From contig CALENB010000375.1 in assembly GCA_937910235.1 (NCBI GenBank), positions 1 to 34,234 on the forward strand: a DNA stretch of 34,234 bases, given 5' to 3'. How positions within the stretch are numbered: position 1 is the stretch's first letter; the number at the start of each line of letters is the position of its first letter. This document shows positions 4,615 through 18,078 of this stretch, piece by piece. Origin of the DNA: an uncultured Myxococcales bacterium (GTDB taxonomy: Bacteria; Myxococcota_A; UBA9042). A program made the position numbers and the translations under genes. Under the pieces are notes generated by a model. It did not search any database, was not told the origin of the DNA, and saw nothing but the letters and a program-made list of their open reading frames with translations.

Positions 4615-4691
4615 CGCCGGATCGCCTGTCCGCACGCGTGCGTGCACCGCCGCGGCTTGACGCGCAACAGGCTCAAGCGGACGCTGCTACC

Positions 4692-7142
4692 ATGAGCGCC
4701 GCCTCCACACACGCGAAGTCTGCCGATTCGACGACGACGCTCGTGGCCTCTCCCGCCCAACAATATCCGCCAAAACCCGGCCTCTCCGTCGCCTTCGTCT
4801 ACTTTCGCGCCCAGGCCGGCGGGGATTTTTTTGCCGATGTGCCGTTCGCCTGGTCCGCCGGTGAGCTGCGTCGCGACGGCGTGCGCGCCGACCTGTTTGA
4901 GGTGCGCTACGAGCGCGGCGAACCGGGCTACAACGACCTGCTCGACGCGGACCTGATGCGCCGGCTGCGCGCCGGGCGATACGGGCTGGTGGTGGTGGAG
5001 TCGTGCTGGCAGCCGAGCTTCATCGACGCGGTGCACGACCTCGGCGCGTGGATCTGCGAGACGGCGCCAGCGGCGGTGCATCCCGGCCGACGTGTGGACT
5101 TCACGCTGCGCCACTACACCCGAGACCGCCAGCCGCTGCGGACGCTCGTGCAGCGACTGCGGACGGGCGCTGACCTGCGTGGCGTGCCGAACCTGCGCGG
5201 CTGGCTGACAGACGTGGTCGCCCCCGTGGCCCTCGGTGAGGAGCGGCCCGTTCCGCCGACCCCGGCGGCGCGGCTGCCTTTTTGCCCGGTCGTCGAAGCC
5301 ATCCGCATCGGCGTCGCCATGGATCTGCGCGGCGAGCCGCCGGTCGTGCGCAAGACGCTCGACACCAACGACGGCTGCCCGTTCTCCAAGCCAGTGCGCG
5401 ACAATCCGGCCTTCGCGGGTGTGGAGCTCGATGCAGAGGGCGTCACGCTGGCCGGATGCAGCTTCTGCTTCATGGGTGGCGACTACGACGCGTTGCCGTG
5501 GCGCGAGACGGTCTCTGTGCATCTCGATCAGATCGCGACCTGGCAGGCTGGGCTCGAGCGGCTCGACGAGGTGGTGCTGCGCGATCAGCACGCCATCCGC
5601 TACCTGCCACACCTGCTGCGCGCCGCGATCGCACGCGGGCTGCCGCCGGTCGGCGTGCTGGTGCCCGGGCGCGGCGACGCGATCTTGCGGTACGGCGACG
5701 CGCTGCGTGAGGCGGCGGAGATCGCCGCGGGGAGTGGGTTCTGGTTCAGCCTGTACCTGATCGGGTTCGAGTCATTCAGCGAGTCGCAGCTGCAGCGCTA
5801 CAACAAGGGCGTGTCGCCGGCGGAGTACGCGGCCGCGCTGCGTGAGCTGCGCGCGCTGCATCGCGCGCATCCCGACACCTTTCGGCTGTTCGCCTACGGT
5901 TCGAGCTCCTTCATCTTATGGGAGCCGTGGGCCTCGCTGGATGACCTCGACGCCAACGTGCGCTTCATCGAAGAGCACGGCGTGGCGCGGCTCTCTAGCG
6001 GGTTGGCGGCGACGCGCCTGCGGCTCTATCCAAACCTGCCGCTGTACTGGCGAGCGAAACGAGATGGGCTGCTGGTCGCCAGTGAGGCGGCGACCGATCG
6101 CGGCGCGGCGCAGACCGGCTACGCTGCGGAGGCGCGCTGGTGTTACGTGGACGGTCGCGTCGCCGCGGTGGAGGAGCTGGTGCGGCGGCTGCTGCTTCAC
6201 ACCCGCGCCGAGGCCCAGGTCGGCGTGCTGAAGGCCGCGGTGGCGTGGGGTCGCCGTGTGTGGCCGACGGCCCTGCCAGCCGTGGACGCAGGCGAGCTCG
6301 GCGAGGCGTCAAGTGGCGCTGCGAGCGCAGAGATTCAGGCGATCCGCGCTGCCATCGCCCGCGCCGAAGCAGGCTGGCGCGGCGTGCGCAGCTTCTGGCG
6401 TCAGGCGCCCGCGGAGACCCATGCGGCGGACGCAGAGCCAGCCGTAAATTGGCAGGCGCAGGCGCAGATCTGGCGCCACGAGCGACGGGCGCAGGCCGCG
6501 CGCGCGGGCGTTCGTGCCGCTCAGACCGTGCGGCTCGGCGCCGCGTGCAACAACCGCTGCCCCACCTGCGTCGGTCGGCACGACCAGCGCGAGACCGATC
6601 CAATGCGGCTCCAGGCCAAGGCAGGCGCCGCGGGTGCGAGCGGCGGCACGATGACGATCACCGGTCGCGAACCCACGCTTGTTCCGAGCCTGTTGCGGGT
6701 CTTGCGCAGCGGTCGAGGCGCAGGAGCGACGGGCGCTGAGGTGGTCAGCAACGGCCGCAGCCTCGCGACACCCGGCGTGGTGGGGCAGCTACTGCGAAGC
6801 GGCGCGACCAGCGTGCTGCTGAAGCGGCACCGCATCGCAGACGACGATGAGGACCGCTACGTGCGCGCGGCGGGCGCGGCGGCGCAGCAGGGCCAGGGTA
6901 TTGCGTTCGCCAACGCCGCCGGCCTGCGCTGGCGCGCGCTGCTCGTCCCGACCGGCGAGGCGCCCGAAGAGCTCGCCGCGCTGGTGTCGTGGGCGCACCA
7001 ACGCGGCGCCCGAGGGGTGCAGTTGGAGGTGCGAATCGACGAGGTCGCGCTCGAACAGCCGGAGCGCTGGGCCAGCGCGCTGCGGGAGGCGCGCCGTGTG
7101 GCCGAAGAGCTCGGGGTGCCGCTGCACATCGAGGGCGACTGA
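4692..7142 (+). CDS. Protein with two radical-SAM-like halves (split and canonical cysteine motifs)
   Basis: An 816-residue protein of unknown reaction. Residues about 30-165 resemble a B12-binding-type Rossmann domain without an obvious DxHxxG. Residues about 205-430 look like a radical SAM core of the B12-associated type, including GFESFSESQLQRYNKG. Its cluster cysteines are spread out as C229-x26-C256-x2-C259 instead of CxxxCxxC. Residues about 612-816 hold a second core with a textbook CNNRCPTC (C619, C623, C626) and a TGREPTL segment where GGEPT normally binds SAM; this half is short for a complete barrel. An Ala/Arg-rich linker joins the halves. The ATG at 4692 is the likely start; a GTG at 4638 would add 18 low-complexity residues. 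There is no clear ribosome-binding site. The gene ends inside a 16-bp tandem repeat. Confidence 0.8.
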   Translation: MSAASTHAKSADSTTTLVASPAQQYPPKPGLSVAFVYFRAQAGGDFFADVPFAWSAGELRRDGVRADLFEVRYERGEPGYNDLLDADLMRRLRAGRYGLVVVESCWQPSFIDAVHDLGAWICETAPAAVHPGRRVDFTLRHYTRDRQPLRTLVQRLRTGADLRGVPNLRGWLTDVVAPVALGEERPVPPTPAARLPFCPVVEAIRIGVAMDLRGEPPVVRKTLDTNDGCPFSKPVRDNPAFAGVELDAEGVTLAGCSFCFMGGDYDALPWRETVSVHLDQIATWQAGLERLDEVVLRDQHAIRYLPHLLRAAIARGLPPVGVLVPGRGDAILRYGDALREAAEIAAGSGFWFSLYLIGFESFSESQLQRYNKGVSPAEYAAALRELRALHRAHPDTFRLFAYGSSSFILWEPWASLDDLDANVRFIEEHGVARLSSGLAATRLRLYPNLPLYWRAKRDGLLVASEAATDRGAAQTGYAAEARWCYVDGRVAAVEELVRRLLLHTRAEAQVGVLKAAVAWGRRVWPTALPAVDAGELGEASSGAASAEIQAIRAAIARAEAGWRGVRSFWRQAPAETHAADAEPAVNWQAQAQIWRHERRAQAARAGVRAAQTVRLGAACNNRCPTCVGRHDQRETDPMRLQAKAGAAGASGGTMTITGREPTLVPSLLRVLRSGRGAGATGAEVVSNGRSLATPGVVGQLLRSGATSVLLKRHRIADDDEDRYVRAAGAAAQQGQGIAFANAAGLRWRALLVPTGEAPEELAALVSWAHQRGARGVQLEVRIDEVALEQPERWASALREARRVAEELGVPLHIEGD

Positions 7143-13212: not shown

Positions 13213-15450
13213 TCACAGGGTCTTGAGGTAGTCCACCAGATCATCGAGCTGGGCCTCGCTGAGGTGGGAGGTGTGGCCCATCGTGTCGGCGGTCATCTTC
13301 AGGGCCTGCTTCAGCGTCGCGGCGCGGCCGTTGTGGAAATACGGCGCGGTGTGCCAGACGCCGCGCAGGCTGGGGGTGTCATAGGGCAGCTGGATCGTCT
13401 GCCACGCGACGGGGGCCTTCTCCGTGTTCGCGATGCGCTGGGCCACCAACTTGCGCTCGGCGTTGTCGGCGACACCGACGTCATAGCTGCTGCCGTTGGT
13501 CCCGGTACCCGCGCTGTGGCAGCCGCCGCAGCCCACCTTGGCGTCGAAAAAGAGCGCCTTGCCACGTTGCGCAGCGGCGCTGAGGTCCTTGGTCTGGCGA
13601 TTGGGGTTGGGCGGCGGCACCAAGCCGTGGGTCAGAAACGCCTCCAGCGCATCCAGGTCGTCGGCGTTGAGGCCTTTGCCACCCATGCGTGTGATGGTCT
13701 CGTTCATGTTGTTCTGTAGGGCGTGCTCCGTGCCCTTCCAGTTGAACGGTGCCGTACCCAGCAGTCGGCCCGCCAGCGCGGGAGTCTGCCGCGGCTCGCC
13801 GTTGACGAACCAGATCTTCTTATCCTCGCCGCCCTCAAAGTGGCAGCTGGCGCAGGCGAAACGGGCGGCCACCGAGATCCCAGCGTTGGGCGTGTGGTGG
13901 AAGATGCGGCGACCACGACGCAACAGCGGCGACAGCGGATCTGTGCCATAGGCGCTCTGCGTGGACTGCGCGAGCAGCAGCGGTTTGGCGATGCGGCTGC
14001 CGAACTTGAGCGCGTCGGCCGGCGTGGCGACCACCGTGTTGAGCAAAGTTGTGAGCACGACGCGGCTGACCGTGAAGTCGTGGCCATTGAGCACGTAGGC
14101 GACGTCCCCGCTCTCCGAGAGGGCGATCCCGCGCGGGCCTTCGCCGACGTTGATGGCGGCGATCGGCGCGGAGATCGGGTCGTACACCGCGGTGTTCAGC
14201 ACCAGCACGTTGTCTGTGCCCGTGGCGACCAGAAAGGCGAGGCTGGCTTTCGGGTGATGCACAAGATCAACGGGTTGATCGAAGCGGCTCAGAAAATCAC
14301 GCTCGGTCTCGGGGTCCCGAACGGGCGAGAAGGCGGTGTGACTGACCAGCCCGAGGCTCACGAAGCGCGGCGTCGCGCTGACCTGCATGGGTCGCTGCGG
14401 GATCTCCGAGCACGCGCTGCCGCCCCCATAGCCGCTCGTAGGCTGCTGTGTCGGCCCGCTGGCCGCGCCGCGGTTCTGCAGGTTGTGGCCGACGAGATAG
14501 CCGCCACCGGGCGTCCCAGCTAGCGCGACCGAGCGGCTCGCCCTGTCGACGTTCGCCTCCGTGCTCTGCGCCTGGTTCGAGCTGGACTTCGACGCGAACG
14601 CGCCCGGCTCGGTGGGGTTGTGCGCCCGCAGGCTATGCAGCGAGGCGGTGCCCACCGTCGGCACGACGCCGGTGGCCGCGCTGATCGGCACCTCCGTGAC
14701 ACGTCCCCACTCATGACTGACGGCCAGCGTCGGACCGGTCGACTCCGTGCCCGCGACCACCAGGACCCGCCGCGGGCGCGGCGCGACGGGTACGGAGCGC
14801 AGCAGCGCGCCCGTCTTGGCGTCGAGCGCCACGACACGGTCTTCGCCCGAGAGCGCCACCCACACCAGCTGCTCGTCCGCGCTCAACGCCACGCCCACTG
14901 GCGCGGTGCCGACGTGCCAGACGTCCGCCGTCGTCGCGCCGGCGGCGATTCGAGCCAGCGCGCCGGCATGGCGGAGCGAGACGTAGGCGGTGCCGTTCGC
15001 CGTCATCACCATCAACTCAGGACGCCCAGCGAGCGCCACCGACCGCTTCTGCAGGAGCGTGGTCGCGTCCAGCACCACGAGCCGATCGTTGTCCCGATCG
15101 ACCACCAGCACCTCCGCACCGTGGACGGCGATCGCGTGGCCAGCGTGGCGGGCGGGCGTCGGCAGGTGCGCGGGCAGCAGCGCAATGGGCGCCGGGAGCG
15201 CCTGTTTGCCCATTCCTGGCGGCAGCGCGTCCTTCGGCAAGCCCGGAAACTCGGGCGGTTTGCACAGATCTGCGGCCCCGATCGGCATCGGCAGTGGCTC
15301 GATGACGCCTGGGTCTTCCAAGACGCAGCCGGGCACGTTCAACAGCAACGCCAGCGTCACCGCGGCGCGTCTGAACCCAAGCGGTCGCGCCATGAGACGA
15401 GGTTGAGACGGGGCGTCGATGGCTACAGCGGTACGGGTTGGTGTCTGCAT
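13213..15450 (-). CDS. Beta-propeller/di-haem cytochrome c peroxidase-like lipoprotein
   Basis: A 745-residue exported protein. A hydrophobic segment ending in NVPGC is a candidate lipobox. The N-terminal half has YVTN/NHL-type propeller blades (VLVVDRDNDRLVVLDATT, LSADEQLVWVALSGEDRV, VGEGPRGIALSESGDVAYVL). The C-terminal part carries two covalent haem sites, CASCH (residues 533-537) and CGGCH (641-645), and the di-haem peroxidase/MauG-type segment YDTPSLRGVWHTAPYFHNGR. The predicted role is periplasmic or surface electron transfer or peroxide reduction. The start at 15450 has GGAGA 6 nt upstream but yields a long n-region; an ATG at 15393 fits a shorter signal peptide with a poor ribosome-binding site. 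It is divergent from the SelP-like gene. Confidence 0.88.
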   Translation of the reverse strand: MQTPTRTAVAIDAPSQPRLMARPLGFRRAAVTLALLLNVPGCVLEDPGVIEPLPMPIGAADLCKPPEFPGLPKDALPPGMGKQALPAPIALLPAHLPTPARHAGHAIAVHGAEVLVVDRDNDRLVVLDATTLLQKRSVALAGRPELMVMTANGTAYVSLRHAGALARIAAGATTADVWHVGTAPVGVALSADEQLVWVALSGEDRVVALDAKTGALLRSVPVAPRPRRVLVVAGTESTGPTLAVSHEWGRVTEVPISAATGVVPTVGTASLHSLRAHNPTEPGAFASKSSSNQAQSTEANVDRASRSVALAGTPGGGYLVGHNLQNRGAASGPTQQPTSGYGGGSACSEIPQRPMQVSATPRFVSLGLVSHTAFSPVRDPETERDFLSRFDQPVDLVHHPKASLAFLVATGTDNVLVLNTAVYDPISAPIAAINVGEGPRGIALSESGDVAYVLNGHDFTVSRVVLTTLLNTVVATPADALKFGSRIAKPLLLAQSTQSAYGTDPLSPLLRRGRRIFHHTPNAGISVAARFACASCHFEGGEDKKIWFVNGEPRQTPALAGRLLGTAPFNWKGTEHALQNNMNETITRMGGKGLNADDLDALEAFLTHGLVPPPNPNRQTKDLSAAAQRGKALFFDAKVGCGGCHSAGTGTNGSSYDVGVADNAERKLVAQRIANTEKAPVAWQTIQLPYDTPSLRGVWHTAPYFHNGRAATLKQALKMTADTMGHTSHLSEAQLDDLVDYLKTL

Positions 15451-15746
15451 GGCGGCTCTCCAGGTTGGCCTGATTCGGTCCCAGCCACTCAGAGCAAGGT
15501 CCGTGCCAGCCCCGCGCACAAAGCTACCAACAGCGCAATATTCATGTAATTACCGACGATATTTTCGGGATCGTGTCGTTGACCAACGCTGCGCGCATCA
15601 CCACGCACGTCGCCACGCGCCACCCAACTGTTGAAATATTACGCATCGGTGTTGATTTTTTCGTGCCTGGCGATGATCTCACGGCTGGCCACATCGCTGG
15701 CGACAACACTATTGACGCGTCCCGACCACATCAGCAGGCTATCGGC
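15451..15746. promoter_or_regulatory. Divergent intergenic region, locally AT-rich
   Basis: A 296-bp region between the cytochrome (-) and the SelP-like gene (+), clearly richer in A and T than its surroundings at about 15537-15570 and 15629-15663. It probably holds both promoters. A TTGAAA at 15631 with a weak GATTTT 17 nt later is a possible promoter for the + gene. Small inverted repeats are present: ACGAT/ATCGT (15556-15560, 15570-15574), overlapping CCGA/TCGG (15553-15556, 15565-15568), and GCGATG/CATCGC (15670-15675, 15692-15697). None is long enough to name a regulator. Confidence 0.35.
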
Positions 15747-16709
15747 ATGAAACAAAGCACACTCTTATGGTTAGTTCTGATCCCAATCGCCCTCAGCTGC
15801 GAACCTAACCGCGCAGCCCCCTCCGTCTCCTGCACCACCACCGCGCACTGCCCGGCGGACGGCAATCACTACTGTGATTTAACGACCGAGACGTGCAAGA
15901 CCTGCGCGGGGACCGCGTGCGGCACGGTCGTCGCCGATGCAGCGGCCGCGACGGACGGGACCACCGCGACCGATACAGCCCCAGACACCGCGACGGCTGC
16001 GGACACCGCGACGGCTGCGGACACCGCCACGGCTGCGGACACCGCCACGGCTGCGGACACCGCCACGGCGCCAGACACCGCGACGGCTGCGGACGCGCTC
16101 GCTGTCGCGGACTCGGTCGCGGCAACCGACTCGACCCCATCGAGCGACAGCGGCGGCGCGACGGATGCGCTGGGCGCGACGGATTCGGCGGCCGTGGATG
16201 GTGGCGCGAGCGACGCACAGGTCAGCTGCGCGCACCCGGCCCAGTGCGTCGGCGCCGCCATGCCGACTTGGAAGTTAGCGGACGTTCAGCCGAAGAGCGC
16301 CAAGTTCAAGCAGGTCTATGGACCGACGGCGTTCATCGGAAAAGTCACCGTATTGGCCTTATTATCGGGCTGGTGAAGCTACTGCATTTCCCAGGCTGGG
16401 AAACTAGACGACCTCAAGAAAGAACTCGACGCGACAGGCGCCGACATCAACTTCGCCGTCATGAACTCGATCGATGCGGACTCGGAAGGCCACAAGACGA
16501 ATCTAACTGACGTGTTCACGTACCCATTATTTCAGGACGTCGACGCCGTGAAGGCCAAGGAGGCGATGGGCGGTACGAAGGATGACATCTTCATCTACGA
16601 CAGCAGCGGCAAGCTCGCCCACTACTTGTCGGCCAGCGGCCCGATCGATACGAACTTGGCGGGCGCCGGCTATGCGACGTTGAAGAAGCTGATTCTGGCC
16701 ACCAAGTAG
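15747..16709 (+). CDS. SelP-like lipoprotein, probable selenoprotein with Sec at in-frame TGA
   Basis: Reads as 320 residues if the TGA at 16374-16376 is selenocysteine (U210). Order: lipoprotein signal peptide ending in IALSC (C18); a six-cysteine knot-like segment (C29-C58); an Asp/Thr/Ala linker with six 18-bp repeats; then from about C161 a thioredoxin-fold domain. There, GKVTVLALLSGW is followed by U-S-Y-C (U210, C213), the position of a thioredoxin WCxxC, then ISQAGKLDDLKKEL and GTKDDIFIYDSSGKLAHYL. These match the selenoprotein P N-terminal domain as I recall it (VTVVALLQAS-U-x-x-C and GSKDDFLIYD), including PTWKLAD against PAWSIRD. The same frame continues 111 sense codons past TGA to TAG. 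It would be periplasmic or surface-anchored, redox-active. The start has AGG 8 nt upstream. A nonsense mutation or read error is the main alternative. Confidence 0.8.
15984..16091 (+). repeat. Six 18-bp tandem repeats encoding Asp-Thr-Ala-Thr-Ala-Ala
   Basis: Head-to-tail copies of an 18-bp unit (GACACCGCGACGGCTGCG, with minor variants) encode DTATAA from residue 80 onward in the linker of the SelP-like lipoprotein. The length keeps frame, so copy number can vary without breaking the gene. It is likely a flexible spacer between the lipid anchor and the redox domain. Confidence 0.9.
16374..16407 (+). promoter_or_regulatory. Candidate bacterial SECIS element for UGA recoding
   Basis: The TGA (16374-16376) is followed by 16 nt and then the loop of a hairpin: TTTCCC (16387-16392) pairs perfectly with GGGAAA (16398-16403) around AGGCT (16393-16397). 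CTA (16379-16381) can pair with TAG (16405-16407) as a lower stem. Known bacterial SECIS elements lie in the coding sequence directly after UGA, with an apical loop about 16-37 nt away and a G near the loop start; the E. coli fdhF element has an AGGUCU loop at a similar distance. The layout fits SelB binding. Folding was done by eye. Confidence 0.72.
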
Positions 16710-16754: not shown

Positions 16755-17879
16755 TCAGTTGGACTGGACGCCGACTAGGCCTTTGTCGAGATTATCGTAA
16801 AAGATCGCGACGTTATTGGCCCGCAGCAGGCCGATGGCGCGGAGCTGTACGTCGCGGGTTCGCACGCCGGTCAGGATGCCGTGGGCGATCTCATCGCGGA
16901 CCTCTGGATCGGTGACGGCGCCGTTCTTTTGAGGGTCGATCTTGTTGAGCCGCACGATGTGCCAACCGTAGGGCGTGCGGATGGGTTCTCCGATGACCCC
17001 GACGGTGAGCTTGCTGATGCCGACGACGTACGACTCCTGCATGAGGTCGAAGTCGCCCTGCTCCTTGTAGGGCTTGGTCTCGTCATAGAAGTAGTTGAGA
17101 TGGTCGCAGGTGACGAGCGGATAGTCGGCTTTCAGGGCCAAAACACGGGCGCACATGTGATCGGGCGAATCCGGCGGATCCATCATCAGCTTGCCATACA
17201 GCTCGTAGGCGGTGGGTTGCAGACGGGTGATGCAGGCCTTAGCGGCATCGTCGATCTCGCACTTGTGCCAGTCGCCGCTGCAACAGATGAGCTGGGCGTC
17301 GGTGACCCACCACGCCTTCTCGTGGGCGTAGCGAATGCGAATGCTGCCGCGCAACCAGGTGCGGTCGATGTCGGCCGGGCGTACGTCCTTGGCTTGGTAC
17401 TTCTCCTCGAACTCGTGGGTCAGAAAGCGGCGGACCAGCGCGCGTTTGTAGGACGTCACGAGCCAGGCGGACCACAGCCCCTGGCGTTTGGCCTCCCCTG
17501 CGAGCACCTCGGCGCGGACCAGGGCCTCGACGATTGCGCGGTTGGCGATGTGGGCGGCGTAGGCCGGGCGGACGCGATCAAAATCTGCGCGCGTGATCGC
17601 GACGCCGCCGACACAAGCGAGCTGGCCCGGGGCTGGCCGACCGGGGACGCAGCCGACCTTGGCCCATGGCGCCTCCGGCACGACGCCGACGTCGGGCAGC
17701 TGCCATTGCGCGCCGAGCGTCGCGCCGACTTGATCGGGCTCGGCGGCGCATCCCAGCAGCGCTAGGCAACCGCAGATCACGCCGACCGACGCGAGGCGAG
17801 CCCGGCCTGGATGTCCCATGGCAAGCCGCCGTGACGTCCGTCGTTCTCGTTGCCACGGCGTCGTCGCCTCACGAATCAT
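16755..17879 (-). CDS. Parvulin-type peptidyl-prolyl isomerase lipoprotein
   Basis: A 374-residue exported protein. The signal region ends in LALLGC (C44), a good lipobox. A SurA/PrsA-like helical part follows (ITRADFDRVRPAYAAHIANR, then a long helix), and the C-terminal domain closes with the parvulin signature GEPIRTPYGWHIVRL. Eight cysteines lie between the lipid cysteine and the C-terminus, several within the isomerase domain (ICCSGDWHKC, HMCARV, VTCDH), suggesting disulfide-stabilised insertions not usual in PrsA. The predicted job is assisting folding of exported proteins. The start at 17879 is preferred for GAGAGG 6 nt upstream; an ATG at 17819 gives a more typical signal peptide but has no ribosome-binding site. 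It overlaps the upstream small membrane gene by 11 nt. Confidence 0.82.
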   Translation of the reverse strand: MIREATTPWQRERRTSRRLAMGHPGRARLASVGVICGCLALLGCAAEPDQVGATLGAQWQLPDVGVVPEAPWAKVGCVPGRPAPGQLACVGGVAITRADFDRVRPAYAAHIANRAIVEALVRAEVLAGEAKRQGLWSAWLVTSYKRALVRRFLTHEFEEKYQAKDVRPADIDRTWLRGSIRIRYAHEKAWWVTDAQLICCSGDWHKCEIDDAAKACITRLQPTAYELYGKLMMDPPDSPDHMCARVLALKADYPLVTCDHLNYFYDETKPYKEQGDFDLMQESYVVGISKLTVGVIGEPIRTPYGWHIVRLNKIDPQKNGAVTDPEVRDEIAHGILTGVRTRDVQLRAIGLLRANNVAIFYDNLDKGLVGVQSN

Positions 17880-18078
17880 GGGGTCCCTCTCTGTAGGGCA
17901 GTGCGCCACCCTGCGCCGCGGTCGTCAACTCCACACCAGCGCGGGCGAGCACCCAGGCGAGAAAGAACGCGAGCACGGCGCTCAGATGGTCGCCGCTGTC
18001 CAGCGCCACCAGCCCACGCCACACGGGCACACAGGAGCCGATCGCGAGGAGGAGGCCCGCAGCCTTGATCAGATTCAC
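17869..18078 (-). CDS. Small two-helix membrane protein, unknown function
   Basis: A 69-residue protein starting at a GTG whose last two bases begin the TGA of the upstream gene (GTGA overlap), with a GGTGGT-like weak ribosome-binding sequence just before it. Two hydrophobic helices are evident: IKAAGLLLAIGSCVPVWRGL and LSAVLAFFLAWVLARAGVEL, followed by a short polar tail. No family was recognised. The tight overlaps on both sides place it in a three-gene operon with the polytopic membrane protein and the parvulin lipoprotein. Confidence 0.7.
   Translation of the reverse strand: MNLIKAAGLLLAIGSCVPVWRGLVALDSGDHLSAVLAFFLAWVLARAGVELTTAAQGGALPYREGPHDS

Follow-up and report, generated by a model that had tools for sequence, protein, structure and literature searches.

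Selenoprotein P (SelP; SELENOP in humans) is a selenium carrier of animals, characterized by a His-rich region and a C-terminal tail rich in selenocysteine (Sec). Its redox domain was related, distantly, to TlpA and ResA in a 2008 study (PMC2397514), and a 2026 catalogue (PMC13188914), which covers 119 prokaryotic selenoprotein families, lists broad UxxC families of the same redoxin-fold class as the protein described here, namely Prx-like thiol:disulfide oxidoreductases (PF00578) and Redoxin (PF08534). A term search of the catalogue text returned no PF04592, SelP or SelP_N family, and the family considered here is not described in the open-licence papers found on TUGYCR proteins or bacterial SelP homologues. 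Closer at hand is the NCBIfam entry NF053656 (redoxin_TUGYCR, the TUGYCR motif redoxin selenoproteins), which shares the fold and the Sec position and forms a sister clade within the same phylum. The window, that is the whole 34,234-nucleotide stretch of Myxococcales DNA that was analysed, carries a gene that can be assigned from its sequence, with a probability of roughly 0.95, as a selenoprotein gene whose UGA at 16374 is decoded as Sec and whose product has the identity of a SelP-type domain.

An earlier note on this DNA had described a 320-codon frame with a single TGA at 16374 and a TAG at 16707, had placed the TGA at the first Cys position of a G-W-U-S-Y-C motif, and had assigned both of its flanks to a single domain. 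Translation with TGA read as Sec (U) reproduces the frame, with one TGA only (16374-16376) and the terminal TAG at 16707-16709, and likewise the motif, while the Pfam SelP_N match (residues 173-295) covers both flanks. The layout of the gene and its surroundings is given in Table 1. The lipobox rule is satisfied by the window protein and by 42 of 56 homologues, and in the congeneric proteins L029, L030 and L031 the lipobox Cys stands in the contexts ^CEPNR, ^CEPDR and ^CEPVR; the window protein is probably an exported lipoprotein, anchored by lipid in the cell envelope.

Table 1. Features of the SelP-like gene and its neighbours (window coordinates)
Feature	Position	Strand	Details and basis
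Whole selenoprotein gene, ATG to TAG	15747..16709	+	320 residues, Sec at 210; translation, homologue search and codon column
Signal peptide and lipobox MKQSTLLWLVLIPIALS^C	15747..15800	+	Predicted lipidated Cys18; PROSITE-like lipobox rule
Cys-containing stretch, then low-complexity D/T/A/S-rich linker	15801..16241	+	Tandem DTATAA units; translation, sequence reading
Thioredoxin-fold SelP_N-type redox domain	16242..16706	+	C-terminal, about 155 residues; Pfam SelP_N, AF2 model, Foldseek, alignment
TGA codon read as Sec210	16374..16376	+	First UxxC position; codon column of 56 homologues
Resolving Cys213 of UxxC	16383..16385	+	Invariant; family alignment
Bacterial SECIS hairpin	16387..16403	+	Arms 16387-16393 / 16397-16403, apical loop GGC 16394-16396
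KDDxxIYD motif	16578..16601	+	KDD invariant in 30/30; family alignment, KDD masking, SELENOP comparison
Beta-propeller/diheme c-type cytochrome	13213..15519	-	Head-to-head neighbour, CCP/MauG-like region, two CxxCH; domain matches; also adjoins the gene in congeners G001, G003
Probable parvulin-like peptidylprolyl isomerase lipoprotein	16755..17909	-	Convergent neighbour; weak NCBIfam match PRK00059; synteny, near the gene in G001, G002

The reading of the TGA rests first on its homologues, for which 90 related genomes were searched; 40 of these gave a match, and 56 homologous domains were taken from them. In the codon column aligned to residue 210, where the earlier note had proposed to look for Cys or Sec, TGA occurs 41 times, TGC 13 times and TGT twice, and no other codon is present. 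Translation as Trp or another residue was ruled out, since the column alternates with Cys only. The Sec and Cys labels switch at least six times on the homologue tree, as is expected where one site alternates between the two residues. The frame beyond the TGA is conserved as protein, with 10 invariant residues in 30 sequences, and comparison with three orthologues from congeners puts pN/pS after the TGA at 0.40, 0.40 and 0.74; these values, obtained by simple counting where synonymous sites are almost saturated, point to mostly purifying selection. The earlier note had predicted that standard gene calling would split or truncate the gene; a mechanical open reading frame stops at the TGA, and mechanical callers cut genes of this kind at the UGA. 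That behaviour, together with a general prior, is what speaks for a true stop or an assembly error, in which case the lipoprotein would be truncated and the sequence beyond the TGA a remnant on its own, but this reading deserves next to no credence: 41 homologues from many separate assemblies carry TGA in the same column, which served to rule it out, purifying selection persists downstream, and the RNA that follows the codon covaries as a SECIS.

The genome itself encodes three further copies of the domain. A second Sec copy on contig 246 has the motif HGYUPTC, and two Cys copies, on contigs 322 and 530, have the motif SDWCNSC. The contig-246 copy (L002, G000:C246:41269-42150) is long, with repeated Cys-rich units, a similar domain at its end and a SECIS match of its own.

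The hairpin that follows the TGA begins 10 nt past it, at a distance from the UGA that is fixed in the 41 Sec copies, and their consensus is an 8-pair stem with a three-base loop, mostly GGC. In the Sec copies 89.7% of cells are paired, as compared to 67% after shuffling, and double-change cells number 60 as compared to 14 in shuffles, with six pairs changed on both sides; sliding the partner arm abolishes the pairing signal, and RNAalifold recovers the identical stem unaided. At least six consensus pairs are formed in 39/41 Sec copies and in 0/15 Cys copies. Resampling of synonymous codons (1000 rounds) yields the stem in a mean of 5.7/41 copies and a maximum of 16/41, and thus the protein sequence alone cannot account for the hairpin. 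The window's own hairpin has 7/8 consensus pairs, with a probability of 0.004 under the same resampling, and the only confident matches to a covariance model of the hairpin in the genome are the window gene and the contig-246 copy. An Rfam scan of the downstream region gave no SECIS match, returning only a weak chance match to a human lncRNA model. Judged by its position and pairing pattern, the hairpin is a bacterial SECIS. Variants occur among relatives: one Sec copy (L048:1666-1707, in G024) lacks the common stem and has a different hairpin slightly further downstream, in the CAGGCCTCTAGGCTAGAGG region, and the TUGYCR proteins L055, L056 and L072 have a TGA followed by a variant SECIS loop, AGTT instead of AGGC.

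The machinery for reading UGA in this manner, which the earlier note had named as selA, selB, selC and selD, is complete in the 593-contig assembly to which the window belongs: selA, selB and selD each exceed their model cutoffs, and a tRNA-Sec with anticodon tca (ARAGORN) scores 80.5 bits, above cutoff. On the comparative evidence, the UGA at 16374 is read as Sec by the host's SelA, SelB, SelD and tRNA-Sec under the guidance of the SECIS hairpin. The selD gene, encoding selenophosphate synthetase (L025, G000:C411:7749-8687), has an in-frame TGA and is itself probably a selenoprotein gene.

Kinship with SelP was claimed in the earlier note from resemblance, and the Pfam search that it proposed returned SelP_N (PF04592) at E 8.4e-15. 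SelP_N scores are 55-58 bits against a gathering cutoff of 23.2; every one of the 30 family members gives a match, the window gene is the only gene of its own genome to pass, and 0/14 control genomes match. The human domain sequence used for direct comparison is a working version set down without a database record, and Pfam scores it at 317 bits as SelP_N. Against this working sequence the window domain has 36% identity over 101 residues (BLASTP 4e-17), and hhalign gives 99.2%. In the working sequence, human SELENOP reads KDDFLIYD where the family has KDDxxIYD. Among the homologues, the working sequence scores 42-73 bits with the window's clade and 28-45 bits with most Cys paralogues, and it finds no match in the TUGYCR clade or in one generic TlpA-like protein. 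In a tree that includes it, the working SELENOP sequence sits on a long branch (2.02) with no starred set, so that its placement is not firm.

The same domain is also matched by the AhpC-TSA, Redoxin and Thioredoxin models, and an AlphaFold (AF2) model from three sequences has a thioredoxin fold at modest confidence (pLDDT 64.6), whose top Foldseek matches are TlpA, ResA and CcmG/DsbE, with low TM-scores of 0.35-0.47; a search of the PDB with a single sequence gave no match. The combination that defines TlpA and ResA, a thioredoxin fold with a redox-active UxxC or CxxC, is found in the sequence and the model. These matches would suit an ordinary envelope thiol-disulfide reductase of TlpA, ResA or Redoxin type that happens to carry Sec, its likeness to SelP being the general likeness of thioredoxin folds, and it fits such a reading that TlpA/ResA were found to be what the domain of SelP itself resembles most (PMC2397514) and that broad UxxC families of PF00578 and PF08534 stand in the 2026 catalogue (PMC13188914). 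The reading is nevertheless unlikely. SelP_N outscores AhpC-TSA (57.6 versus 32.7 bits) and is not matched in the control genomes, the SelP_N match drops by 12 bits once the KDD of KDDIFIYD is masked, while the AhpC-TSA match loses none, and the working SELENOP sequence prefers the window clade, leaving the TUGYCR clade and the generic TlpA-like protein unmatched. The KDD presumably occupies the place of the cis-proline in TlpA-type proteins. TlpA, ResA and CcmG (DsbE) resemble the window protein in fold, in cytochrome context, in being anchored to the envelope and probably in chemistry, and they are its best Foldseek matches; they have CxxC where the window protein has Sec, and the window protein is a lipoprotein with a long linker.

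Membership in NF053656 is a narrower placement and much less probable still. That model is matched by each of the 30 family members at E <= 0.01, with the Sec position identical and the same redoxin branch, but the window protein scores 70.8 bits against a curated cutoff of 100 and was for this reason not filed there. The true TUGYCR proteins tested from the phylum (L055, L056 and L072) reach 170-214 bits; they make up a clade of their own, and SelP_N matches none of them. By sequence and clade, the family is of SelP_N type and separate from TUGYCR.

The SelP-type placement has bounds of its own. The window protein and the N-terminal domain of SelP have in common a thioredoxin fold, Sec as the first residue of UxxC, predicted export, and, judged by the working SELENOP sequence, KDDxxIYD; the match, however, covers only positions 10-126 of the 234 of the SelP_N model, and the window protein has a single Sec, a lipobox and a TAG directly after the domain, without a His-rich region or Sec-rich tail. 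The bacterial SECIS is itself coding sequence and follows the UGA immediately, in contrast to the eukaryotic SECIS in the 3' UTR. The exported, lipid-anchored, SelP-like oxidoreductase that had been proposed at the outset is supported, with export and lipid anchoring as predictions and the likeness to SelP confined to the thioredoxin-fold domain; the window protein is, on the evidence of its domain matches, a homologue of the SelP N-terminal domain and not selenoprotein P itself. This bacterial family shares with SelP a Sec site, KDDxxIYD and 36% identity (to the working sequence). A tentative suggestion, somewhat less likely than not, is that it is the closest bacterial kin of the redox domain of animal SelP, and that the Sec-bearing domain entered eukaryotes from a bacterial, cytochrome c-linked envelope protein or shares with one a direct Sec-bearing ancestor. 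If so, the later selenium-transport role of SelP was built upon an old electron-transfer domain.

Within Myxococcota, the protein family occurs in the taxonomic family of the window and in others related to it. Its profile has matches in 113/379 genomes of the phylum, a number to which the TUGYCR clade and the clades of Cys paralogues also contribute. Among the carriers that have a name, Plesiocystis pacifica SIR-1 (Nannocystaceae, Myxococcota) has a Cys form; the other is an assembly from uncultured Myxococcales. A contig-database search with a single protein query found no relative, and one with an alignment found two, both Cys forms, as follows from search patterns that were back-translated with Cys codons.

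What such a protein might do is suggested by its active site and its neighbours. It has one domain of thioredoxin fold, a homologue of the N-terminal SelP domain of animals, and UxxC is the active site. The Sec210 selenolate would be the attacking nucleophile and form a selenenylsulfide with Cys213 in the manner of thioredoxin and TlpA, and the protein would probably act as a thiol-disulfide oxidoreductase of the envelope; a partnership with the diheme c-type cytochromes encoded alongside is a weaker suggestion. By analogy with TlpA, ResA and CcmG, the protein may reduce cysteines in cytochrome maturation, for which the odds are only a little short of even. It is less likely that the protein and a cytochrome-rhodanese partner exchange electrons or sulfane sulfur, and peroxide reduction is improbable.

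The putative partner comes from relatives of the window's genome. In 11 genomes (G002, G006, G008, G012, G013, G015, G016, G020, G026, G031 and G039) the next downstream gene on the same strand is related to one for a lipoprotein with the domain order cytochrome c, cytochrome c, rhodanese, with the domains confirmed by Pfam in three of the 11 and with the cytochrome and rhodanese parts in two separate genes in G002; in Plesiocystis pacifica the lipoprotein gene is divergent from the SelP-like gene. This lipoprotein, adjacent in 12 genomes, is possibly an undescribed partner of the SelP-like protein. Its rhodanese part has the motif YC(A/G)CPH (YCACPH or YCGCPH) and gives a weak match to NF041203, which the catalogue (PMC13188914) lists as a family that has Sec within a CxU motif.

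From this association a different function may be drawn for the family, in which a rhodanese persulfide is taken up or reduced by the Sec/Cys protein and the electrons pass to the diheme cytochrome. Such envelope sulfur chemistry competes with cytochrome maturation only, and leaves the selenoprotein identity untouched. The lipoprotein adjoins the gene in 11/16 genomes that have its relative, in P. pacifica it lies divergently beside the gene, and its rhodanese resembles a family known with Sec; the partner is, however, missing beside the window gene and was not found in its genome at E<=1e-40, so that the case for a functional link draws on related genomes and on another cytochrome next to the window gene. 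Sulfur chemistry is a candidate for the family's function that is less likely than not. The combined context of diheme cytochromes and rhodanese suggests a function that can be put to the test. Lipoprotein loci with two cytochrome c domains and a rhodanese domain lie at L104:3655-4707, L101:5090-6247, L108:6111-7157, L103:6366-7394 and L078:4204-5385. Elsewhere in the window, an 834-residue frame on the plus strand (4638-7142) contains Cys clusters of radical-SAM-like appearance (CPTC).
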